Of a stretch of DNA of 9,052 nt, positions 1-9,052 are shown piece after piece. Position numbers and translations under genes: made by a program. Position 1 is the first letter of the stretch; each line of letters starts with the position of its first letter. The notes beneath the pieces are model-generated. The model was not told where the DNA came from and searched no databases. It saw nothing but the letters and a program-made list of their open reading frames with translations. Source of the DNA: Bacteroidota bacterium (lineage in GTDB: Bacteria; Bacteroidota; Bacteroidia; JACCXN01); the NCBI GenBank assembly GCA_013696965.1, contig JACCXN010000016.1, forward strand, positions 1 through 9,052, written 5' to 3'.

Positions 1-2
1 CA

Positions 3-1202
3 ATGCAGGGAGGGTTACAGGCATTGCAAGAACTGCTTTATAAAGAGCCTGAATCTGGCCAAGCTGTTCCTGATTGTTCTCCAACTTTCAATAAACCTAA
101 GTGGGTGAATGCACCATATAAAATGTATCTTTTTGAAGCATGTCCCTCTAAAGTTGGAATAGGAACTACTAACCCAATAGAAAAACTACATGTAAAAGGA
201 ATAACTGAACATATAATATGTAATGGTTGTCCTGCCCCGGAGGAGGACAAAACTACATACATAGCTCTTGAAGACCAGTTGGAAGATCAATTTGGTAATT
301 TAATTGCGAAGAATTTGTGGAAAATTGGTGTAAGCGCAGGCACGGGAAATAGCTATTTTTTAATTAGGCATGATACAGATAGACCAAGTTTATTTATAAC
401 CCAGGATGGCAGAGCTAGTTTATTTTCTTCTACCGATCCTGCTGCCTCATTAGAAATAACTCAGGCTGCTGAACTAAATTATGACCTTTTAAGACTTAGG
501 AAAACTGGTAAAGGGGTAGTTTTTAGTGTAAAAAGAAATGGTCGCGTTGGAATAGGAACACCTACTCCTTTAGAAATGCTAGATGTAAGAGGTAATGGAT
601 ATTTTGAAGGCAATGTTGGTGTTTGAACAATACCAGAGACACTGTTACATCTAAAGGGAACATCCTCTACTAACACATTATTATTTTTGGAACCAGGTAA
701 GTGGAGTTCTATTGGAGATTATGCCGAAATACGCTTTGGAGATGCGAATCATTACATAAAAGGTGAATTTGGGGCAGGTACAACCATTTATGATATAGAC
801 AAAATAAAATTAATGGGTGGAAATGTTGGCATTGGGACAAATAATCCATATTACAAATTAGATGTTGCCGGGACTATGAGAGCATGTGAAGTAATTGTCA
901 ATACAGCTTGGTGCGATTTTGTTTTTAAACCGGAGTATAAACTTATGACTATCCATGAAAGACAATTGTTTATAAATAAATACGGTCATCTTCCAAACGT
1001 AAAATCTGAAAAAGAGATAATTGAAGAAGGAGCCAATTTAGGGCAGGCAATAACTGGAATATTACAAAACGTTGAAGAACATGAACTTTATCTGCATAAC
1101 CAGGAAGAAAAAATAAACATTCAACAAAAAGAATTAGATGCACTAAAAGCAGAATTTAATAAGTTGTTGAAGGAAATTGATTTGCTGAAAAATATTAAGT
1201 AA
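3..1202 (+). pseudogene. Tail-fibre-like surface protein with VGIGT beads, 5'-partial, interrupted by an in-frame TGA
   Basis: The reading frame enters from the left edge, so the true start lies outside the window; the ATG at 3 is probably internal. One frame runs to the TAA at 1200-1202 with a single interruption, TGA at 624-626. The protein carries four spaced beads of the type VGIGTxNPxxKLxVxG, seen at 153, 546, 615 and 825. The stop replaces the second glycine of the third bead (NVGV-stop-T), so GGA to TGA is a one-base change. The end (about 880-1202) has the WCDFVF..YKLM block, the HLPNVKSEKEI block and a Glu/Lys/Leu-rich coiled coil, as in Bacteroidota proteins annotated as tail fibre domain proteins. 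These are usually exported fibre or adhesin-like proteins; the exact role is unknown. It may be a recent nonsense mutation or a base-call error, because the sequence after the stop is well preserved. Confidence 0.8.
153..872 (+). repeat. Four degenerate VGIGT-bead coding repeats
   Basis: The motif Val-Gly-Ile/Val-Gly-Thr, then about four residues, then x-Leu-x-Val/Leu-x-Gly, begins at 153, 546, 615 and 825. Spacing is uneven (393, 69 and 210 bases), so these are protein-level beads on a fibre, not a DNA tandem array. The third copy contains the TGA at 624-626. Such beads separate beta-structured segments in secreted fibre proteins of the Bacteroidota. Confidence 0.7.
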
Positions 1203-1265
1203 AATATAATAGTAACTAACTTAATTAGCGAGGATCAAGTTTAATTTTTAATTCAAAAAAGAATA

Positions 1266-1412
1266 ATGAGAAAAACAAAACTGATATTTTAAGTATTTTC
1301 GACTGTTTTGTTTTATGCTCATATTGACTTCCTAAGAAATGTATGGAATGGACAATCACCGCAATTTAATAGCGAAACTGGAAGCGGGTACATTCTTAAT
1401 TTTGAAAAATGA
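1266..1412 (+). pseudogene. Broken small secreted-protein ORF (nonsense codon in the signal peptide)
   Basis: From the ATG at 1266 the frame reads MRKTKLIF, then TAA at 1290-1292, then VFSTVLFYAHIDFLRN and on to the TGA at 1410-1412. If the stop is replaced by Leu (TTA to TAA is one base), residues 1-19 become a normal signal peptide: basic start, then a hydrophobic core. The frame then stays open for 39 more codons and its stop overlaps the next start in an ATGA arrangement (1409-1412), as in translationally coupled genes. That overlap is the main reason to believe it was once a gene. No family is recognised. It could also be a chance frame in a 206-base spacer. Confidence 0.35.
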
Positions 1413-1849
1413 GAAACAATATAAATACCATAAGAATGATAGCAAGTGTGTTGACCCTAGTTATGCTCCTTTTTTATACAAGTTGTAGTAAATGGAATTA
1501 TAATGAAGTGAAAAATATTCAGGAAGTGAAAGTTCCTTGTTCTTCTATAACAGAACAGCAACATATAATTAGTGATAGCATTTCATATTATTCAATGCTA
1601 GATACCAATAACTGTACTCCGTTACAAATTGATTTTTCACAAAAAACTTTGCTTGGAAAATATACAAGCGGAACAGGTTGTACTATTGAATTTAAAAGAC
1701 AACTTTATATAAATGAAAAAGACAAAGAATCTCTTTATGTGATTACTTTAAAAGAAAAGGGCTTGTGCAAGAAACAAGACGAAAGTATGAATTGGATAAT
1801 TGTTCCAAAAATTTCTTCTGACTATAAGGTAACATTTAAAATAAAGTAA
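1409..1849 (+). CDS. Small secreted lipoprotein, family not recognised
   Basis: This is a 146-residue protein with a signal peptide: a polar start (MRNNINTIR), a hydrophobic stretch at about residues 10-23, and a lipobox-like YTSC with the candidate lipidated Cys at 26. It is therefore likely anchored in the envelope. The mature part has four further Cys (44, 69, 91 and one in GLCKK near 119), which may form disulfides. The TLLGKYTSGTGC and ESMNWIIVPKI segments suggest a compact beta domain and resemble uncharacterised Bacteroidota lipoproteins, but I cannot name a family. Met10 is a possible alternative start that keeps a shorter signal. The start overlaps the stop of the broken upstream ORF by 4 bp, and a short secreted ORF begins 2 bases after its stop, so it probably sits in a small operon of exported proteins. 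Confidence 0.75.
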   Translation: MRNNINTIRMIASVLTLVMLLFYTSCSKWNYNEVKNIQEVKVPCSSITEQQHIISDSISYYSMLDTNNCTPLQIDFSQKTLLGKYTSGTGCTIEFKRQLYINEKDKESLYVITLKEKGLCKKQDESMNWIIVPKISSDYKVTFKIK

Positions 1850-1851
1850 TT

Positions 1852-1971
1852 ATGAAAACGAAAATATACTTTTTTTTCTTCATTTTTATTTTTTGCTTTT
1901 TTCAAAGCAAACCACAAGTATCTGAAAATGAAACTCCTGTGAGTTGCAATCATTCCGGTAGTATAAGTTAA
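1852..1971 (+). CDS. Possible 39-residue secreted peptide or truncated secreted protein
   Basis: The ATG at 1852 lies 2 bases after the stop of the upstream lipoprotein gene. The product begins MKTKIYFFFFIFIFCFF, an extremely Phe-rich hydrophobic core after two lysines, followed by a short polar tail with one Cys (VSENETPVSCNHSGSIS) and TAA at 1969-1971. It looks like a signal peptide with almost no mature protein, so it may be the stump of a longer gene or a small secreted peptide. A run of eight T at 1870-1877 inside the signal is a likely slippage point. The low-complexity start means it could also be a chance ORF. Confidence 0.35.
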   Translation: MKTKIYFFFFIFIFCFFQSKPQVSENETPVSCNHSGSIS

Positions 1972-2009
1972 AATGTGCCTTAAATAATAAAACCGTAAAT
2001 TTGGCCCAA

Positions 2010-4616
2010 ATGAAAAACTTAATCCTTATTATCTCAATTTTCCTGCTTGCACACAATGTATCGGGACAAAATCAGCCCTTTTACTATTATCAGGGAGAAA
2101 AAATTTTCTTAAAAGAAAGACCAGACAAAATATTGGTTAAACTTTCAAAAGAAGCAAATAAAACAAGACTTTTGAATCTTATTCAGACAGACGGTGTTGT
2201 TCAAATTTCTTCCAAGGAAAAAACAAAAGAAACCATTGGGCCATTTATTGTTTTGGAAACGAAAAGCAAAAATGCACTTCCTGCAATTGCACTTACTAAA
2301 TATAAAAATAGTCCTGATGTAGCTTCTGCTTTACCGATGTTGGAGTATAAGGACGGAAAACTACAAGGGTTAACTGATGAATTTATTTTAAAAATAAAAA
2401 CTGAAAGTTCTTTTGAACAATTACAGAACTTGGTAAAAGAAAAAGGATGTACAATAATTAAAGAAAATGAATTTGTCCAAAATCAATTTTTAATCTCCGT
2501 TTCAAAATCATCAAGTTTAAATTCTTTACAACTAGCCAATTTATTTTATGAAACAGGATTATTTGAATTTGCGGAGCCTGATTTTTTCAGAGAAAATATT
2601 TTTCATTCAAATGACCCATTATTCAGCAATCAATGGACTTTAAAAAACACAGGACAAAATGGAGGAAACGCTGGGGCAGATATAAATATAGAACAAGCAT
2701 GGAGTATCAGTCAAGGTCGTCCTGAAGTTCTCATTGCAGTGGTTGACCAAGGAGTACAACTAACACACCCAGACTTATTACCTAATCTTTTGCAGGGTTT
2801 TGATGCAACTGGTAATGGTACAAATGGAGGCCCATTTAATATGACGGGTAGTGACCCACAAACAGCAGATTTTCATGGAACAGCTTGTGCGGGAATTATT
2901 GCCGCAGTAAAAGATAATGGGATTGGAGTTACCGGAGTTGCTCCAAATTGCAGAATTCTTCCTGTAAATACCAGTGTAAATGGGGATCTTATTACTCAGG
3001 CATTAGCTGACGGTCTTGAATGGTCTTGGAATCCTTCATTTGGAAATGCTGATGTAATTAGTAACTCATGGGGAGGCGGTTCTCCTTCAACAGTTATAAC
3101 CAATGCGATTAACAATGCTGTATCGCAAGGCAGAGGAGGATTAGGAAGTGTTGTGTTATTTTCATCGGGAAATGCTAATTCTTCGGTTAGTTATCCTGCA
3201 AATTTATCGAATGTAATTTCAGTTGGAGCTTCCTCTAACCAAGATGGCAGAGCGAGTTATTCCAACTATGGAAGCGAATTAGACATTGTTGCCCCAGGCG
3301 GAGATAAAAATATTTATTCAACCGATATAATAGGTTCAGCAGGTTATTCAGCCGATGACTATACCACATCATTTGACGGAACATCGGCAGCCTGTCCTCA
3401 TGCTGCGGGAGTTGCAGCATTAATTTTATCTGTTAACAGATGTTTAACAGGAATACAGGTCAAACAAATTTTAGAACTAAGTTGCGATAAAGCTGGTGGG
3501 TATTGCTATGATTCCAATAGCTCAAACCCTAATGGGACATGGAACAACCAAATGGGACATGGCAGAATTAACGCATTTAAAGCAGTCCAATATGCTTTCA
3601 GCAGTGGGATTAATAATTTTACCAATGTAGGCAGTCCTACTGACAATTCTGCTACGAGCAATTACCAAATGGTTATGTACACAGGCTGTTCAGGTGTAGC
3701 TGCTGCTACTTATTCCGTTCAGAGGCATGAAGTAATTAAAAATATAACTTTTCCATACACGCAAGCTCCAATTATTATAGGGACTTCAAATGGACTGTCA
3801 GCAGCAAGTCCTAATGACGGCAATTATTGGATGGATGCTTATAACTTATCCACAACATCCGCAACCCTCAAAACTTATGTATATGCTACAAATAATATAC
3901 TTGGTCAAAATGTAGTTTGGGTTCCAACAAGTCCTTCTAATATCAAGTTTAATTACTCTGTCCTAAGTTCAATGCAGCAGGACATTTACCTGCAAAATCA
4001 AACAGTTAGCTCAGGTTCGCAAACTCATAACGCAATGGGGCAAATTGTAGCAGGAAGCAATGTTACAACGGCTGTTGCTTATGGAGATTATGTGGTTACA
4101 GGTGATGCCAATGTTACTTTACATGCAGGCAATAGTATTACTCTCGGACCGGGAACAGTTATTAGTCCCGGACCTAATGGTTACTTTCATGCGTATGTTG
4201 ACCCCTTCTTTACCTGTACTCAATATCCACAAGGCAAAGTAGCTTCTCAATCAAATGGGGAACAGCCTGAAACAACCGCTCAAAAAATTGAAACAAATTA
4301 TATTGAAGATTATGAAACTACTTTTCAAAAAACAGAAGAGTTAAATAACATCAGAAAACTTCAACCAAACATTTATCCCGTTCCTTTCAGTGATAAATTG
4401 ACTATTGAATATACAATTGCATCCTCTGAAAATGTAACTATATCAGTTTGCTCTTTAAATGGTCAAGAACTGATTCAGCTAAAAAACAAGTCAAAACACG
4501 AACAGGGAATTTATACGATTGATTTTAATGGTATTAATCTTCCGGCTGGAACATATCTCCTTAAAATTAATATTGACAATAAATCAACCACTCAAAAAAT
4601 TATAAAAATCAACTAA
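2010..4616 (+). CDS. Secreted subtilisin-like (S8) serine protease with T9SS type A sorting domain
   Basis: This 868-residue exported endopeptidase begins at the ATG at 2010; a TTG nine bases upstream is in frame but would bury the signal peptide. Residues 1-20 are a signal peptide ending SGQ. Residues about 28-195 are a propeptide with two similar halves (KILVKLSKEA and EFILKIKTES), fervidolysin-type in style. The mature enzyme probably starts near NDPLFSNQWTL (from 201). Catalytic residues by numbering from 2010 are Asp246 (AVVDQGV), His289 (FHGTACAG), oxyanion Asn388 (SSGNA) and Ser459 (GTSAACPHAAG), all present. After a beta-rich region, residues about 679-732 carry VTLHAGNSITLGPGT, similar to modules annotated as 3-coathanger stack in Bacteroidota. 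Residues 788-868 are a T9SS type A tail (IYPVPF start, LPAGTYLLKI, QKIIKIN end). Substrate unknown; extracellular or surface degradation is expected. A lipoprotein gene follows after one base. Confidence 0.93.
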   Translation: MKNLILIISIFLLAHNVSGQNQPFYYYQGEKIFLKERPDKILVKLSKEANKTRLLNLIQTDGVVQISSKEKTKETIGPFIVLETKSKNALPAIALTKYKNSPDVASALPMLEYKDGKLQGLTDEFILKIKTESSFEQLQNLVKEKGCTIIKENEFVQNQFLISVSKSSSLNSLQLANLFYETGLFEFAEPDFFRENIFHSNDPLFSNQWTLKNTGQNGGNAGADINIEQAWSISQGRPEVLIAVVDQGVQLTHPDLLPNLLQGFDATGNGTNGGPFNMTGSDPQTADFHGTACAGIIAAVKDNGIGVTGVAPNCRILPVNTSVNGDLITQALADGLEWSWNPSFGNADVISNSWGGGSPSTVITNAINNAVSQGRGGLGSVVLFSSGNANSSVSYPANLSNVISVGASSNQDGRASYSNYGSELDIVAPGGDKNIYSTDIIGSAGYSADDYTTSFDGTSAACPHAAGVAALILSVNRCLTGIQVKQILELSCDKAGGYCYDSNSSNPNGTWNNQMGHGRINAFKAVQYAFSSGINNFTNVGSPTDNSATSNYQMVMYTGCSGVAAATYSVQRHEVIKNITFPYTQAPIIIGTSNGLSAASPNDGNYWMDAYNLSTTSATLKTYVYATNNILGQNVVWVPTSPSNIKFNYSVLSSMQQDIYLQNQTVSSGSQTHNAMGQIVAGSNVTTAVAYGDYVVTGDANVTLHAGNSITLGPGTVISPGPNGYFHAYVDPFFTCTQYPQGKVASQSNGEQPETTAQKIETNYIEDYETTFQKTEELNNIRKLQPNIYPVPFSDKLTIEYTIASSENVTISVCSLNGQELIQLKNKSKHEQGIYTIDFNGINLPAGTYLLKINIDNKSTTQKIIKIN

Positions 4617-4617
4617 A

Positions 4618-4977
4618 ATGAAAAAGATAATTTTTATAATAGTAACGTCATTATTTATTTTTGCTTCATGCAAAAAAGAAAAATTCCCTGAAATTGATGA
4701 CTTAACAGGAAACTGGATTGAACAGACCAGTAATTCATTCAAACACAAATTAATTTTTGAAGATGAAACTATGTATTTTTTCAAACCATCAAGTGTCGAT
4801 ACATTATCCTACCGTCTGGATAAAAAACAAGAAGTTATTTATTTAAGATTGAAAAACAATCCTGCGGCGGGAGAAAGTAACCATAAAATTTTAATTAATA
4901 AAAAAAAGAAAGAGCTAACAATTTGGGGTTTATTTATTGGTGTTAATACGAGTGAAACCATATTTAAAAAAGAATAA
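4618..4977 (+). CDS. Small lipoprotein co-oriented with the subtilase gene
   Basis: This is a 119-residue protein with a clear lipoprotein signal: MKKIIFIIV, hydrophobic core, then FASC with the candidate lipidated Cys18, followed by KKEK. The mature part begins LTGNWIEQTSN and alternates short strands (HKLIFEDETMYFF, VIYLRLKNN, KILINKKKKELTIWGLF), which suggests a small beta-barrel like the lipocalin-like lipoproteins common in Bacteroidota. This fold call is inferred from pattern only. The start lies one base after the TAA of the subtilase gene, so the two are almost certainly cotranscribed. Small barrels can bind ligands or inhibit proteases; neither activity is shown here. Confidence 0.8.
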   Translation: MKKIIFIIVTSLFIFASCKKEKFPEIDDLTGNWIEQTSNSFKHKLIFEDETMYFFKPSSVDTLSYRLDKKQEVIYLRLKNNPAAGESNHKILINKKKKELTIWGLFIGVNTSETIFKKE

Positions 4978-5008
4978 GTTACATACCGCATAAATAACCT
5001 TCTCCCTA

Positions 5009-5220
5009 ATGAAGATAATTTGTATCGCAACAGTACTTACTCTACTGACTGACTTTATTTGCCTGTAAAAAAGTAAAAAATGAATCCATGACCATTGTAA
5101 GAGATTGTACTGGGACCGCTTTAACGGGAAAGACTATCATGTATGTAATCTTGAAAAAGTTTCATCATTTGCTGAAGGAACAGAAGTAACAGCAACGTTT
5201 AAAAAAATAAAAGGTAAAAT
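5009..5220 (+). pseudogene. Decayed small lipoprotein gene with two frameshifts and a lost 3' end
   Basis: Three adjoining frames make one protein. From the ATG at 5009 the frame gives MKIICIATVLTLLT. The tract ACTGACTG at 5044-5051 then shifts the frame; removing one 4-bp unit restores LLTLFACKKVKNESMTIVRD, a perfect lipobox LFAC with Cys at 18. This second frame runs through DCTGT to about 5117, then a second indel moves into the frame of FNGKDYHVCNLEKVSSFAEG and TEVTATFKKIKG up to about 5220. Recognisable sequence then stops and non-coding-like sequence follows. The DCTGT...GKDYHVCNLEKV pattern resembles small uncharacterised Bacteroidota lipoproteins. It follows the intact lipoprotein gene by 31 bases, so it was probably the third gene of the subtilase operon. 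Confidence 0.7.
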
Positions 5221-5449
5221 AGACATTTGCCTCTTTCCAATTTCGCCTACCCACACGTTTCTGCTTTTTATTTTTACTATTTATATAACACATTTATTAA
5301 AGGAGAAATGCTAATAAACATTATATTTGTTCATATATGTAATAGTTATATAAAAGCCTTATTTGGCATCTCAGGACAGAAAGGATTGGTGGCCCTTTGG
5401 CCTTTTTCGTTCTAGAAATTTTACTGCAATTCGGATCATTTGTGGCACC

Positions 5450-5492
5450 CTTGCGCACTCGCTTCAATTTTTTTTCCTCCCAGATGCGCAAG
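5450..5492. repeat. 8-bp perfect inverted repeat
   Basis: CTTGCGCA at 5450-5457 is the exact reverse complement of TGCGCAAG at 5485-5492, with a 27-base spacer containing eight T (5468-5475). An A-run (5493-5500) follows and could pair with the spacer T-run instead. It could be a regulatory or recombination sequence; the loop is too long for a standard intrinsic terminator. Confidence 0.45.
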
Positions 5493-5507
5493 AAAAAAAA
5501 CGGGTCT

Positions 5508-5656
5508 TTTTTTTCTCTTCCTCCACACACAAAAAATTTCAACTATCTCACACACATTTGCACCTGTTGCTATTCATTTGTGTTGCACTGCTGTTTAAAA
5601 GTAATCGTAGTCATTTAGAAAAGTGGGTAAGGCCTTTACATAACATAACATTGCAT
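5508..5656 (+). repeat. Diverged direct repeat, copy A
   Basis: This copy shares an ordered series of blocks with 8917-9052: a T-run ending in CTC, an A-run, ATTCATT, GTTG, TGCTGTTT (5589-5596), TAATCGT, and ATAACATTGCAT (5645-5656, identical over 12 bases). Order and spacing are nearly the same in both copies, so common ancestry is more likely than chance. The last block is also the left arm of the attC-like hairpin. The two copies lie on either side of the second subtilase and barrel genes in the same orientation. Confidence 0.6.
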
Positions 5657-5777
5657 ATCAGCCAGTGGCGGTCTAGGTACTCTATTGCAAAGCCTTGAAT
5701 TTCTATGAACTTTGCTGCTCGCGGTTATTGGTTCGGTGCTGTAATCGCCACCAGCATATAAGCAAATAACGTTGGAT
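5645..5777 (+). other. Imperfect hairpin resembling an integron attC site
   Basis: Nested complementary arms span about 130 bases: AAC 5647-5649 with GTT 5771-5773; TTGC 5651-5654 with GCAA 5762-5765; ATAT 5655-5658 with ATAT 5756-5759; GC 5661-5662 with GC 5754-5755; GTGGCG 5665-5670 with CGCCAC 5746-5751; and inside, GCAAAG 5687-5692 with CTTTGC 5710-5715. Unpaired bases such as AA 5760-5761 lie mostly on one arm. The right end reads GTTGGAT, which fits the GTTRRRY core of attC, in the context AACGTTGGATGC. The left end TAAC followed by ATTGC is placed as an R''/L'' arm would be, although ACATAAC fits RYYYAAC imperfectly. Orientation matches a cassette whose gene lies upstream. No integrase gene is in view; a structured intergenic repeat unrelated to integrons is the main alternative. 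Confidence 0.45.
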
Positions 5778-5794
5778 GCAAGCGTATAAAAAAA

Positions 5795-5825
5795 CTGACA
5801 AAAAGAATAAAAATCAATATATTTG
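5795..5825 (+). promoter_or_regulatory. Bacteroidota-type promoter for the second subtilase gene
   Basis: TATATTTG at 5818-5825 matches the Bacteroidota -7 box TAnnTTTG. CTGACA at 5795-5800 lies at a suitable distance for the upstream box (20 bases after CTG). Transcription would start near 5830-5832, leaving a short leader before the ATG at 5845. It lies just right of the attC-like hairpin, so the unit would carry its own promoter. Confidence 0.5.
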
Positions 5826-5844
5826 AACCAAAATAATTTTTGAA

Positions 5845-8040
5845 ATGAGAAAAATAAGTTCTTTAATATTTGTTATGCTAATCAACATAACAGTCTTTGC
5901 ACAAAATTATGTTCCAGGAGAAATAATTGTTAGAATTGATAAAGAAATTTCCGTCCAACAATTTGCTCAACAAATACAAACAGTTAATATAACACCAACA
6001 AAGGAACTGTCAAAAAGAATGAATATTTGGCTTTTTTCGTTTCCAACACAAATACCAATTGACACAGTAATTAATAGAGTTAAAAAAAATTCTAATGCTA
6101 TTTATGTTCAGCCCAATAGATTCGTTCAACAAAGAGCTAACAATCCAAACGACCCAAACTTCTCTAACCAATGGGGGCTAACAAAAATTAAAGCACCGCA
6201 GGCTTGGGACATTGTAACAGGTGGAACAACAGTAACAAATGAACGCATAGTAATAGCTGTAATTGACGGAGGTTTTGACCTAACTCACCCAGATATAGGT
6301 TATTGGCAAAATACTAACGAAATACCTAACAATGGAATTGATGATGACAATAATGGTTATATTGATGATTTCAATGGCTGGAATGCTTATAACAGCAATG
6401 GAAATATAATAATAGATAATCACGGAACGCACGTAGCAGGAATTGCAGGGGCACGGGGCAACAATGGAATCGGAATCAGCGGTGTTAACTGGAATATTGA
6501 AATAATGCCTATTATGGGTTCTTCAGGTACAGAATCTGTGGTCATTGAAGCATTAGGTTATGCTCTTGAAATGAGAACACTCTATAATCAAACTAATGGC
6601 GCACAAGGTGCTTTTATTGTTGTAACAAACGGTTCTTTTGGCGTTGATAAAGCAGACGCTGCAGATTATCCCCTTTGGTGTTCTATTTATGATGATTTAG
6701 GACAAGTAGGTATTTTAAATATTGCAGCTACAGCAAATGGAAATTGGGATGTAGATGAGAAAGGCGATGTTCCTACAACGTGTAGCAGTAACTTTTTAAT
6801 TTCAGTTACTAATACAGACCAAAATGATGACCTTCATAATAATGCTGCTTGGGGTAAAAATTCTATTGACCTTGCTGCACCTGGAACTGGTATTATTTCC
6901 ACACTGCCAAATAATAATTATGGTAATCTTACAGGCACTTCAATGGCAGCCCCTCACGTTGCGGGCGCAGTTGCTTTAATGTATGCTGCCGCCTGTGAAA
7001 AAATGATTTTAGATTATCGGAATAATCCTGCAGGGGTTGCTTTATCAATTAAACAATTCTTGCTGAATAACTCTGACCCTGTTTGGTATTTACTTCTTAA
7101 AATCGGCTATGGAAGACTGAATGTTTATAGAAGTATAATAAAGATGTTTGAACAATATGATTTAAGTTTATATGTAACGGGAACAGAAGCAGCTTCCAAA
7201 CAATATGACGCTATAAACTCCATTGTAGTTGAAAATTATTCTGTTGAAAACCATAATGTCACATTTCGTGCCGGGCAGTCAATTACTTTCCTGCCAGGGA
7301 CACATTTGAAACCTGAACCCGGGAAAACTATTCGTGCTTTTATTGATGAAGCAACTTTCGGTTGTGCAATTCCATATGAACCTCTTACTGTTGATTTATT
7401 AGCCCCTGAATATGCTTATTGTGCCAGTGGTAACTCCCCGATTACTTGTAATGCAATAGCAAGTGGTGGTAAAATTCCCTATAGTTATGTTTGGTACAGT
7501 CGTGTAATTACAAGCAACAACTGGTTAACACATAATTATAACAATCCAAATATTGAATTTCTTTCAAATGAGAGTTTTTATGTAAAAGTAGAAGTAACTG
7601 ATAACAGAGGAATTAGTGTAATGTCAGTAACAAAATTAATTACTTGTATAGAGGGAGGCAGAATTGCTTCAACTGATTCAACAACAAATCCTGATTTAGC
7701 CAAAATTGACCTGACAAAATATTCAACTTCTGAAACAAGCGAACAAACTACAAGTACTATTATTGAACAGAAGTATTTAAGACAAACATTTAATGTTTTT
7801 CCAAATCCTTCAATAGGTAATGTAAACATTGCTTTTACCTTGGAAAAATCTAGCAGAGTTACCTTACAATTAACTGACGCAAAAGGCAGCAAAGTAGCTG
7901 ACATTATCTATAACAAGCTATATGAAGCAGGAAATCATACTTTTGAATATGATGGGAAAAATTTAACTCCCGGTTTATATTTTTATAATATTACTACAGA
8001 TGAAGGCTCAAATGCTTTAAAATTAATCCTTACGAAATGA
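5845..8040 (+). CDS. Secreted subtilisin-like (S8) serine protease with T9SS type A sorting domain (second copy type)
   Basis: This is a 731-residue exported endopeptidase. Residues 1-20 are a signal peptide ending FAQ. Residues about 21-100 are a short propeptide (YVPGEIIVRID start), with maturation expected near NDPNFSNQWGL (from about 102). Catalytic residues are Asp141 (AVIDGGF), His193 (DNHGTHVAG), oxyanion Asn298 (ATANGN) and Ser366 (GTSMAAPHVAG), so it should be active. Residues about 460-502 carry VTFRAGQSITFLPGT...IRAFID, the same beta module as in the first subtilase. Residues about 513-602 look like an Ig/PKD or SprB-like domain (ITCNAIASGGKIPYSYVWY, FYVKVEVTD). Residues about 650-731 are a T9SS type A tail (FPNPSIGN, LTPGLYFYNI, LKLILTK). 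The propeptide and overall sequence differ clearly from the first subtilase, so it is not a recent duplicate. Its stop TGA overlaps the start of the barrel gene by 4 bp. Confidence 0.93.
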   Translation: MRKISSLIFVMLINITVFAQNYVPGEIIVRIDKEISVQQFAQQIQTVNITPTKELSKRMNIWLFSFPTQIPIDTVINRVKKNSNAIYVQPNRFVQQRANNPNDPNFSNQWGLTKIKAPQAWDIVTGGTTVTNERIVIAVIDGGFDLTHPDIGYWQNTNEIPNNGIDDDNNGYIDDFNGWNAYNSNGNIIIDNHGTHVAGIAGARGNNGIGISGVNWNIEIMPIMGSSGTESVVIEALGYALEMRTLYNQTNGAQGAFIVVTNGSFGVDKADAADYPLWCSIYDDLGQVGILNIAATANGNWDVDEKGDVPTTCSSNFLISVTNTDQNDDLHNNAAWGKNSIDLAAPGTGIISTLPNNNYGNLTGTSMAAPHVAGAVALMYAAACEKMILDYRNNPAGVALSIKQFLLNNSDPVWYLLLKIGYGRLNVYRSIIKMFEQYDLSLYVTGTEAASKQYDAINSIVVENYSVENHNVTFRAGQSITFLPGTHLKPEPGKTIRAFIDEATFGCAIPYEPLTVDLLAPEYAYCASGNSPITCNAIASGGKIPYSYVWYSRVITSNNWLTHNYNNPNIEFLSNESFYVKVEVTDNRGISVMSVTKLITCIEGGRIASTDSTTNPDLAKIDLTKYSTSETSEQTTSTIIEQKYLRQTFNVFPNPSIGNVNIAFTLEKSSRVTLQLTDAKGSKVADIIYNKLYEAGNHTFEYDGKNLTPGLYFYNITTDEGSNALKLILTK

Positions 8041-8648
8041 GAGTTTTTAAATATATTATTTTTTACTTATTTCTTTTTACAACCGCTTGCTTTGGTCAAG
8101 GTATTGGATTTCGTGGCGGAATTGAGTTTGCTAATCGAGAACAATTAAATAATGGTTTAGGCATAGGAACATATTTTACTTTCAATTCCTTTTCTGAAAA
8201 ATTTAATCTATTTGTTTCCTATGATTATTTTACAAAAAGAAATGAAATCTTTAGTAAAGATTTGCTAATGAATTATAAAAAACATAAATTTTCCATAGCT
8301 CCACTATATATTATGCCTTTGAAAGAGAAATTTGATTTTAAAGTTGGGCCTATGTTGAGTTATAATTCTGTTTTTGCAACTCACCAAGGTGTTGTATCAA
8401 GATGGTTGCTTAATTATTACTCCAAGTCAATTGGACTTGAAACAATTGTCAATCTACAAATAAAAAATGTATTAAAATTTCCATTAAATATTGACTTCTT
8501 TGTAACTCCGGCCTATCTAATTAATATTTCCAGAAAAATAGACGAAAATCCTGACCCTAGTGGTACAATCCCCGAATATGGTAATAATTTAATTAATATT
8601 ACTTTTCAAATGGGTTTAACTTATCACTTTAACAGACAAAAAGAATAA
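8037..8648 (+). CDS. Probable outer-membrane beta-barrel protein
   Basis: This is a 203-residue protein with a signal peptide (residues 1-21, ending CFGQ). The mature part alternates amphipathic strands with turns: IGFRGGIEFANR, GLGIGTYFTFN, FNLFVSYDYFT, HKFSIAPLYIMPL, FDFKVGPMLSYN, SIGLETIVNLQI, IDFFVTPAYLIN and ITFQMGLTYHFN. It ends in the aromatic-rich strand typical of barrel proteins. About eight strands at this length fit the small barrels of about 200 residues common in Bacteroidota. TTAC before the cleavage site could be read as a weak lipobox, but an SPase I site is more likely. The start overlaps the stop of the subtilase gene in an ATGA arrangement, so the two are probably translated together. 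A role as partner, receptor or anchor of the protease is inferred only from this pairing. Confidence 0.75.
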   Translation: MRVFKYIIFYLFLFTTACFGQGIGFRGGIEFANREQLNNGLGIGTYFTFNSFSEKFNLFVSYDYFTKRNEIFSKDLLMNYKKHKFSIAPLYIMPLKEKFDFKVGPMLSYNSVFATHQGVVSRWLLNYYSKSIGLETIVNLQIKNVLKFPLNIDFFVTPAYLINISRKIDENPDPSGTIPEYGNNLINITFQMGLTYHFNRQKE

Positions 8649-8673
8649 ACGCCAGCATCTATCACTTACAATA

Positions 8674-8877
8674 TTGACAATTAGAACATTAATATTATTT
8701 GTCCTTATTTCAAATGGAATTTTTGCCCAGACAAATTATAACTGCTATGGAACATAAAATAAATACAATAGCTATACAGGAATAGGAAATGAAGGCAAGC
8801 TGCTTATTCCCTTTCACACAGCCATAAGCACATTTACAATTCCCTCTAAAACCCATCTCACAATCCAAAAATTGTAA
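8674..8877 (+). pseudogene. Remnant of a secreted protein gene
   Basis: From a TTG at 8674 the frame reads TIRTLILFVLISNGIFAQ, a good signal peptide ending FAQ, then TNYNCYGT and TAA at 8755-8757. The frame continues open for another 39 codons (NKYNSYTGIGNEGKLL...) to the TAA at 8875-8877. There is no ATG at the start; ATTG at 8673-8676 could be an ATG with one extra T. YNSYTGIGN is weakly like the head repeats of surface fibre proteins. I read it as the decayed 5' end of a secreted protein gene; a chance frame is possible. Confidence 0.35.
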
Positions 8878-9052
8878 ATAAGCTTCTGTCTTTCCCACAA
8901 AAGTAGAAGAAGTTTGTTTTTTTCTCCCCCCTTTTAAAAAAAGTGAAACACCCAACCGCACGCTGCAATTGTCATCATTCATTGACGTTGTGCTGTTTGC
9001 AAATAATCGTGACTTTCTATGAAGTGAGAAATGCCAAGCGATAACATTGCAT
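8878..9052 (+). repeat. Diverged direct repeat, copy B, cut by the window end
   Basis: From the T-run at about 8915 to the last base, the blocks T-run/CTC, A-run, ATTCATT, GTTG, TGCTGTTT (8991-8998), TAATCGT and ATAACATTGCAT (9041-9052) repeat those at 5508-5656 in the same order and orientation. In copy A the last block opens the attC-like hairpin, so a second hairpin is expected just beyond the window. Nothing coding is seen here. Confidence 0.6.

Follow-up and report, generated by a model that had tools for sequence, protein, structure and literature searches.

This locus raises the question of whether a long imperfect hairpin, flanked by genes for two different T9SS-sorted subtilases (2010–4616 and 5845–8040), is a site at which gene cassettes are recombined in a Bacteroidota genome. 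The window, that is, the whole stretch of 9,052 nt analysed here, is contig C16 of a draft genome of 3.86 Mb in 106 contigs. A first-pass annotation had described a hairpin with TAAC and GTTGGAT ends and compared it with integron attC sites. The letters are in place: TAAC occupies 5646–5649, and AACGTTGGATGC occupies 5769–5780, which places GTTGGAT at 5771–5777. The nested arms are also present, with TTGCATAT (5651–5658) and ATAAGCAA (5758–5765) forming seven of eight pairs, and with an inner 6-bp stem of GTGGCG (5665–5670) and CGCCAC (5746–5751). In attC terms, the candidate site covers 5643–5777 of the plus strand, with a repeat core at 5646–5773. Its R'' box, ACATAAC (5643–5649), consists of the specific end of the upstream cassette and the conserved AAC; the two 8-base arms correspond to L'' and L', and GTTGGAT (5771–5777) corresponds to R'. 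By analogy with canonical sites (PMC2727003), the crossover would lie between G5771 and T5772, and the next cassette would run from 5774. On folding energy alone, this copy does no better than chance, since 5630–5790 folded as DNA gave z values of +0.97 (top strand) and +0.17 (bottom strand) relative to shuffled sequences. An Rfam scan of the window yielded no match. The hairpin of this copy is therefore unconvincing when considered alone, and the case for its reality comes from comparison among copies, by BLAST, covariance model, folding of circle-form sites and covariation.

A BLAST search with 5600–5800 of the window detected approximately 30 places in the same genome at 78–95% identity, on a single strand per contig and with a spacing of 0.8–7 kb; many contigs start or end within the repeat. 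A covariance model, built as R1 and then R2, found approximately 50 sites in this genome, again on one strand per contig, and gave the window site 134.8 bits. Further copies at unit boundaries, as the first-pass annotation had predicted, are thus present. In the alignment, conservation extends exactly from (T/C)AAC to GTT, and the bases outside differ and are cassette-specific. The array of this genome is spread over many short contigs, so that its continuity with the recombinase encoded on one contig (C44) can only be presumed, which counts against the interpretation preferred below. In a stretch of approximately 21 kb on another contig (C68, L064/L065), no site was detected; this stretch encodes, among others, a cytosine methyltransferase and the candidate defence protein HEC-05.

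The units between the repeats start with GTTNNNNNNN, in which GTT is followed by 6–7 unit-specific bases, and each ends with the reverse complement of its own start. Among 59 units from this and other Bacteroidota genomes, the identity between start and end was 0.90–0.97 at positions 4–9, compared with 0.27–0.65 for swapped ends; in the same comparison, identity was approximately 2% at position 11 and 0.80–0.85 at positions 12–14. For a second set of 57 units, the values were 0.93–0.98 at positions 4–9, 0.00 at position 11 and 0.88–0.93 at positions 12–15. Position 11 of the pairing between start and end was mismatched in 98–100% of units. The letters matching a unit's own end numbered 359 of 413, whereas 10,000 within-genome permutations averaged 224 and never exceeded 268. 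An integron cassette has a split R box, with one half (TTRRRY) at the beginning of the cassette and the second half within its own attC. As judged from the letters, the complementarity of start and end in these units is the R'/R'' logic of integron cassettes, and it is found together with AAC and GTT at the site ends. Both the alignment and the matching of unit ends bear out the attC-like reading and the two flanking boxes (R'', L'', L' and R') that had been proposed for the hairpin.

The same data bear on the possibility that each unit is an inverted-end transposable element, for example of the IS200/IS605 type or a miniature one, inserted beside its neighbours. Each unit does have inverted ends and a subterminal hairpin, and copies are many, but in a single-contig genome the units stand head to tail at one locus with no gene in common. 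They contain different single ORFs, their ends vary between units yet agree inside each one, and no shared transposase was seen; we regard this explanation as exceedingly improbable. Readings of the hairpin as a terminator, a REP-type element or a transposon were rejected on the basis of own-end covariation, the head-to-tail arrangement of the units and the lack of a common transposase.

Sites were then considered in the excised-circle form, in which the cassette end, the site and the cassette's own start are joined. For 54 such sites, 19 of which came from the genome of the window and were mostly near-copies, the mean folding energy was −32.1 kcal/mol for the bottom strand and −27.6 kcal/mol for the top strand. 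The bottom strand was more stable in 48 of the 54 sites (p = 2e-9); when the sites were averaged by locus or genome group, this was true of 11 out of 13. This is the bias expected by the first-pass annotation, on which the window copy alone is uninformative. The mean z values relative to dinucleotide shuffles were −5.5 (bottom) and −3.7 (top). In an alignment of 26 sequences, 92.7% of the pair cells were formed and double-sided changes were found in 30 of 33 pairs; the covariation score was 0.777, compared with 0.177 for shuffled alignments and approximately 0.1 when the pairing was slid. The L'' arm and both arms of the inner stem belong to these covarying stems. As in canonical attC sites, the bottom-strand preference goes together with unpaired features, but conserved mismatches and an uneven spacer take the place of the single extrahelical G and T.

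Within the window, the site separates two units, both on the plus strand. Positions 1–5649 hold the 3' part of the cassette ending at the site, with the first subtilase gene and small genes, and its start lies outside the contig. The next unit (5771–9045) contains the second subtilase gene, an ORF (8037–8648) and a conserved cassette tail. Unlike those of nearly all other units, its start (GTTGGATGC) and its end (GCGATAAC) are mismatched; it is therefore not one intact cassette, and may reflect the loss of a site or the fusion of two cassettes. The beginning of a second attC-like site (CGATAAC-ATTGCAT, 9039–9052, plus strand) is cut short by the contig end, with R'' at 9039–9045 and seven bases of the conserved core at 9046–9052; the last 120 bases match a cassette end on another contig (C12) at 95%. 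Both cassettes of the window thus have an unmatched or missing end partner, which counts against the cassette interpretation preferred below. The tail of approximately 250 nt preceding this second site (8800–9052) shows 70–95% identity across at least 15 cassettes of the genome and contains an inverted repeat (8820–8841/8870–8891) and a minus-strand ORF. This tail may be a module that cassettes bring with them as a promoter or regulatory element.

The first-pass annotation had noted that integron cassettes are not commonly reported in Bacteroidota; the present system is not rare in the phylum. R2, which may miss divergent sites, found sites in 64 of 148 sampled Bacteroidota genomes (43%). One single-contig genome of the genus Flavobacterium has at least 143 sites, with listed places from approximately 3,078 to 3,247 kb, and further loci of the genus have 75 sites; each of these arrays keeps to one strand, almost always that of the recombinase gene.

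To relate arrays and recombinases, loci were picked from both sides. When 80 named loci were picked by recombinase similarity alone and then scanned with R2, 50 sites were found; 48 of them share the strand of the recombinase gene and, with a single exception, these 48 lie downstream of it. They occur in Flavobacterium enshiense, F. aciduliphilum, Seonamhaeicola, Algibacter, Winogradskyella, Algoriphagus, Cyclobacterium, Aquiflexum, Alkalitalea and metagenome-assembled genomes. Conversely, R2 alone was used to pick 18 array stretches, and in five of them (L236, L239, L240, L244 and L251) a recombinase of the family stands at the head and in the array direction. In four more, the recombinase is close by in another orientation, being divergent in L250 and L254, just outside the stretch in L248 and opposite in L252. 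Two gene orders therefore exist. In the second, which is that of classical integrons, recombinase gene and array point away from each other; it was observed in L122, L114, L248, L250 and L254. The commoner, co-directional order resembles that of Treponema integrons (PMC3607928). For several arrays, no recombinase lies within 20 kb, and many homologous recombinases have no array within the sequence stretch examined; both observations count against the interpretation preferred below. A de novo hairpin finder of moderate specificity (AACA...GTT plus 12 outer pairs) gave 41 matches downstream on the recombinase strand; the opposite strand gave nine, and the upstream side, where the area was larger, gave 36. 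This agrees with the covariance model but is a weaker signal.

An attI-like site was identified at the head of the arrays. The first cassette's start, located in 26 loci by its match to R'' of the first site, lies 69–260 bp beyond the recombinase stop codon. Immediately upstream is a putative attI motif with A at −8 (26 of 26), T at −7 (24 of 26) and A at −1 (24 of 26). As in integrons, therefore, the first cassette begins at an attI-like sequence adjoining the recombinase gene. In the genome of the window, a 646-aa tyrosine recombinase encoded on C44 ends 138 bp before GTTATAAGC, which matches the end of the first cassette; the contig then ends with the first site. The first cassette of C44 (L053:15536–16255), adjoining attI, has a minus-strand gene for a protein of 239 aa that combines a DnaA C-terminal domain with HTH repeats. 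A second recombinase (375 aa), encoded on C14, heads two further sites.

Both enzymes are members of a family in Bacteroidota whose set of catalytic residues is complete and whose C-terminus is of the IntI-like SPLD/SPFD type; R232, K257, H322-x-x-R325, H348 and Y357 (L069 numbering) are invariant in the family alignment. Most members have an N-terminal extension of approximately 70–340 residues. That of the 646-aa recombinase (L053:13214–14250) is approximately 340 aa long and starts with a domain of the WSKTHKCWYV type, which is present once in relatives and for which a beta-beta-alpha-beta-beta-alpha fold was predicted in L069. The closest solved relatives of the recombinase are IntI4 (2a3v), archaeal Xer enzymes and XerH. 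The tyrosine recombinase that the first-pass annotation had suggested looking for thus adjoins the copies, but it is not of the intI type. With TIGR02249, whose cut-off is 265 bits, the recombinase of this genome scored 223.6 bits and the family 180–225 bits, compared with 440–488 bits for IntI positive controls. The spacing between KGxKxR and LRHS is 66–71 in the array-linked recombinases checked and 108 in true IntI, because the IntI insertion is absent; every array-linked recombinase examined has an alignment gap of approximately 41 residues at this insertion, which includes helix I2. In the tree, the canonical IntI proteins form a separate, fully supported clade together with one unclassified row, and the array-linked recombinases are scattered over Bacteroidota clades. 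Recombinases with and without arrays are not separated, partly because many contigs end right after the gene.

These data allow two further explanations to be weighed. The locus could be a canonical integron, or a cluster of canonical attC sites lacking an integrase (CALIN), whose ordinary IntI was missed or lies elsewhere. The AAC/GTT ends, the R''-L''-L'-R' order, the bottom-strand bias and the cassette sizes would all fit, but among the proteins of this genome, estimated by a tool as 100% complete, none is above the IntI cut-off and only sub-threshold Xer/IntI-like matches were found. The scores and spacings given above argue in the same direction, and R2 detected no site in six control genomes reached via IntI-bearing or IntI-like loci, five of which have a canonical IntI by the spacing test. 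We judge this explanation highly unlikely. Since the integrase neither reaches the IntI cut-off nor has the additional domain, the Bacteroidota system is not a canonical integron; of the integron reading in the first-pass annotation, the attC-like sites, their copies and a recombinase stand, and the canonical integrase does not. Alternatively, L'-R' could be an ordinary double-stranded site, like dif for Xer, with the hairpin as a by-product or terminator and with resolution as in XerCD/dif modules. The resemblance of the recombinase to XerA and Xer enzymes, which likewise lack the I2 insertion, and the plain sequence of the attI motif are consistent with this. Set against them is the covariation of the R'' end with the cassette's own start over approximately 14 bp, with a mismatch kept at a fixed place, which makes sense mainly if both ends pair in one strand. 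In addition, the L'-R' core is too variable within one array for a fixed double-stranded target, and we consider such a mechanism unlikely.

The cassettes themselves also resemble those of integrons. Outside the genome of the window, they are tandem and co-directional, usually with one ORF and each ending in an attC-like site; the longest ORF is forward in 50 cassettes and reverse in none, with a median of 577 bp. Cassettes of the window's genome are longer and mixed in orientation, and encode T9SS-sorted proteases, TPR and TonB-type proteins, exonucleases and a methyltransferase. A cassette of 1.3 kb, with its site, is common to F. enshiense DK69 and a second species of the genus Flavobacterium at 97% identity over its full length, while the recombinase regions of the two are only 70% identical and the cassette neighbours differ. 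Similarity on the far side breaks at GTT; the near side abuts sites that are alike in any case. This cassette, transferred between species, encodes a 199-aa protein that is MerT-like by eye. In another case, a 365-bp cassette is present twice in one array with 100% identity. Shared and duplicated cassettes with exact ends are an indirect sign that the recombinase may recombine cassettes.

Taken together, we estimate a probability of roughly 0.87 that the element is an attC-like cassette recombination site belonging to an integron-like platform in Bacteroidota. The array would be headed by the gene for a tyrosine recombinase that is akin to IntI and archaeal XerA yet lacks the insertion specific to IntI, followed in the co-directional type by an attI-like site approximately 70–260 bp past the stop codon, ending in ...ATATA..RNRA|GTT. 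A cassette would start with GTTNNNNNNN-A-NNNN and end with NNNN-C-NNNNNNNAAC, followed by a hairpin of 116–180 nt. In the excised circle, start and end would pair, and one strand, most likely the bottom one, would fold into a long two-arm hairpin, whose R arm (9–10 bp, a conserved A.C mismatch and approximately 4 bp) and L arm (approximately 13 bp) would imitate a double-stranded core site. Covariation and strand bias suggest that the recombinase acts on these attC-like sites as folded single-stranded DNA. It would join the folded site to attI or to another attC by strand exchange at G^TT, a cut position between G and TT placed by analogy, and the product would presumably be resolved by replication. 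Genes could thereby be captured, deleted or shuffled.

Helix I2 is reported to be required for cassette capture, to give rise to single-strand recombination and to occur in no other protein (PMC7790495), and the absence of this insertion from the recombinases here counts against our interpretation. A phylum-wide cassette system that follows attC logic without I2 directly tests this stated necessity and bears on the origin of integrons. On balance, we lean towards a separate and widespread Bacteroidota integron class, reaching superintegron size, whose recombinase handles folded single-stranded attC without helix I2 and achieves strand choice and avoidance of the second exchange in another way; recombination of single-stranded cassettes would then predate I2 or have arisen twice. 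If this is true, integron surveys based on IntI domains have missed an extensive pool of mobile gene cassettes, to judge from the sites in 43% of the sampled genomes and from arrays of more than 100 cassettes, and its contents include a metal-resistance-like cassette shared between species. The IntegronFinder 2.0 survey gives Salinibacter ruber M1 as its complete integron in Bacteroidetes (PMC9024848). No earlier description of the present arrays was found in the open literature, excluding bioRxiv and most subscription papers, and priority is uncertain.

Compared with integrons and sedentary chromosomal superintegrons, the system is alike in having a recombinase gene with an adjoining attI, tandem co-directional single-gene cassettes, site ends of AAC...GTT, two imperfect inverted boxes, R''/R' complementarity within the cassette, a more stable bottom-strand fold and arrays exceeding 100 sites. 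It differs in a recombinase that lacks the IntI-specific insertion (helix I2), falls below the IntI cut-off, mostly has the N-terminal extension of approximately 70–340 residues and usually points towards attI. The sites also differ: R pairing in canonical attC covers 7 nt, often 9–11 (PMC2727003), whereas here 9–10 pairs are followed by a fixed mismatch or small bulge and approximately four more, giving an R arm of approximately 14 bp; the spacer is 1 nt, compared with 4–6 nt. The Treponema chromosomal integrons are described as having intI, whereas the recombinases here are without its insertion. NCBIfam NF040815 bears the name 'site-specific tyrosine recombinase/integron integrase', and an integron-like subgroup of simple tyrosine recombinases has been defined in which, according to the sections of that source consulted, the insertion is not conserved in all members and is stated to be essential for integron function (PMC8138268). 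In those same sections, members without the insertion are linked to no array or attC, unlike the enzymes described here. XerA and other Xer enzymes acting on dif are alike in fold (closest 5hxy, with a similar score) and in the absence of the I2 insertion, but the present recombinases are linked to attC-like arrays and an attI-like motif and not to a single dif.
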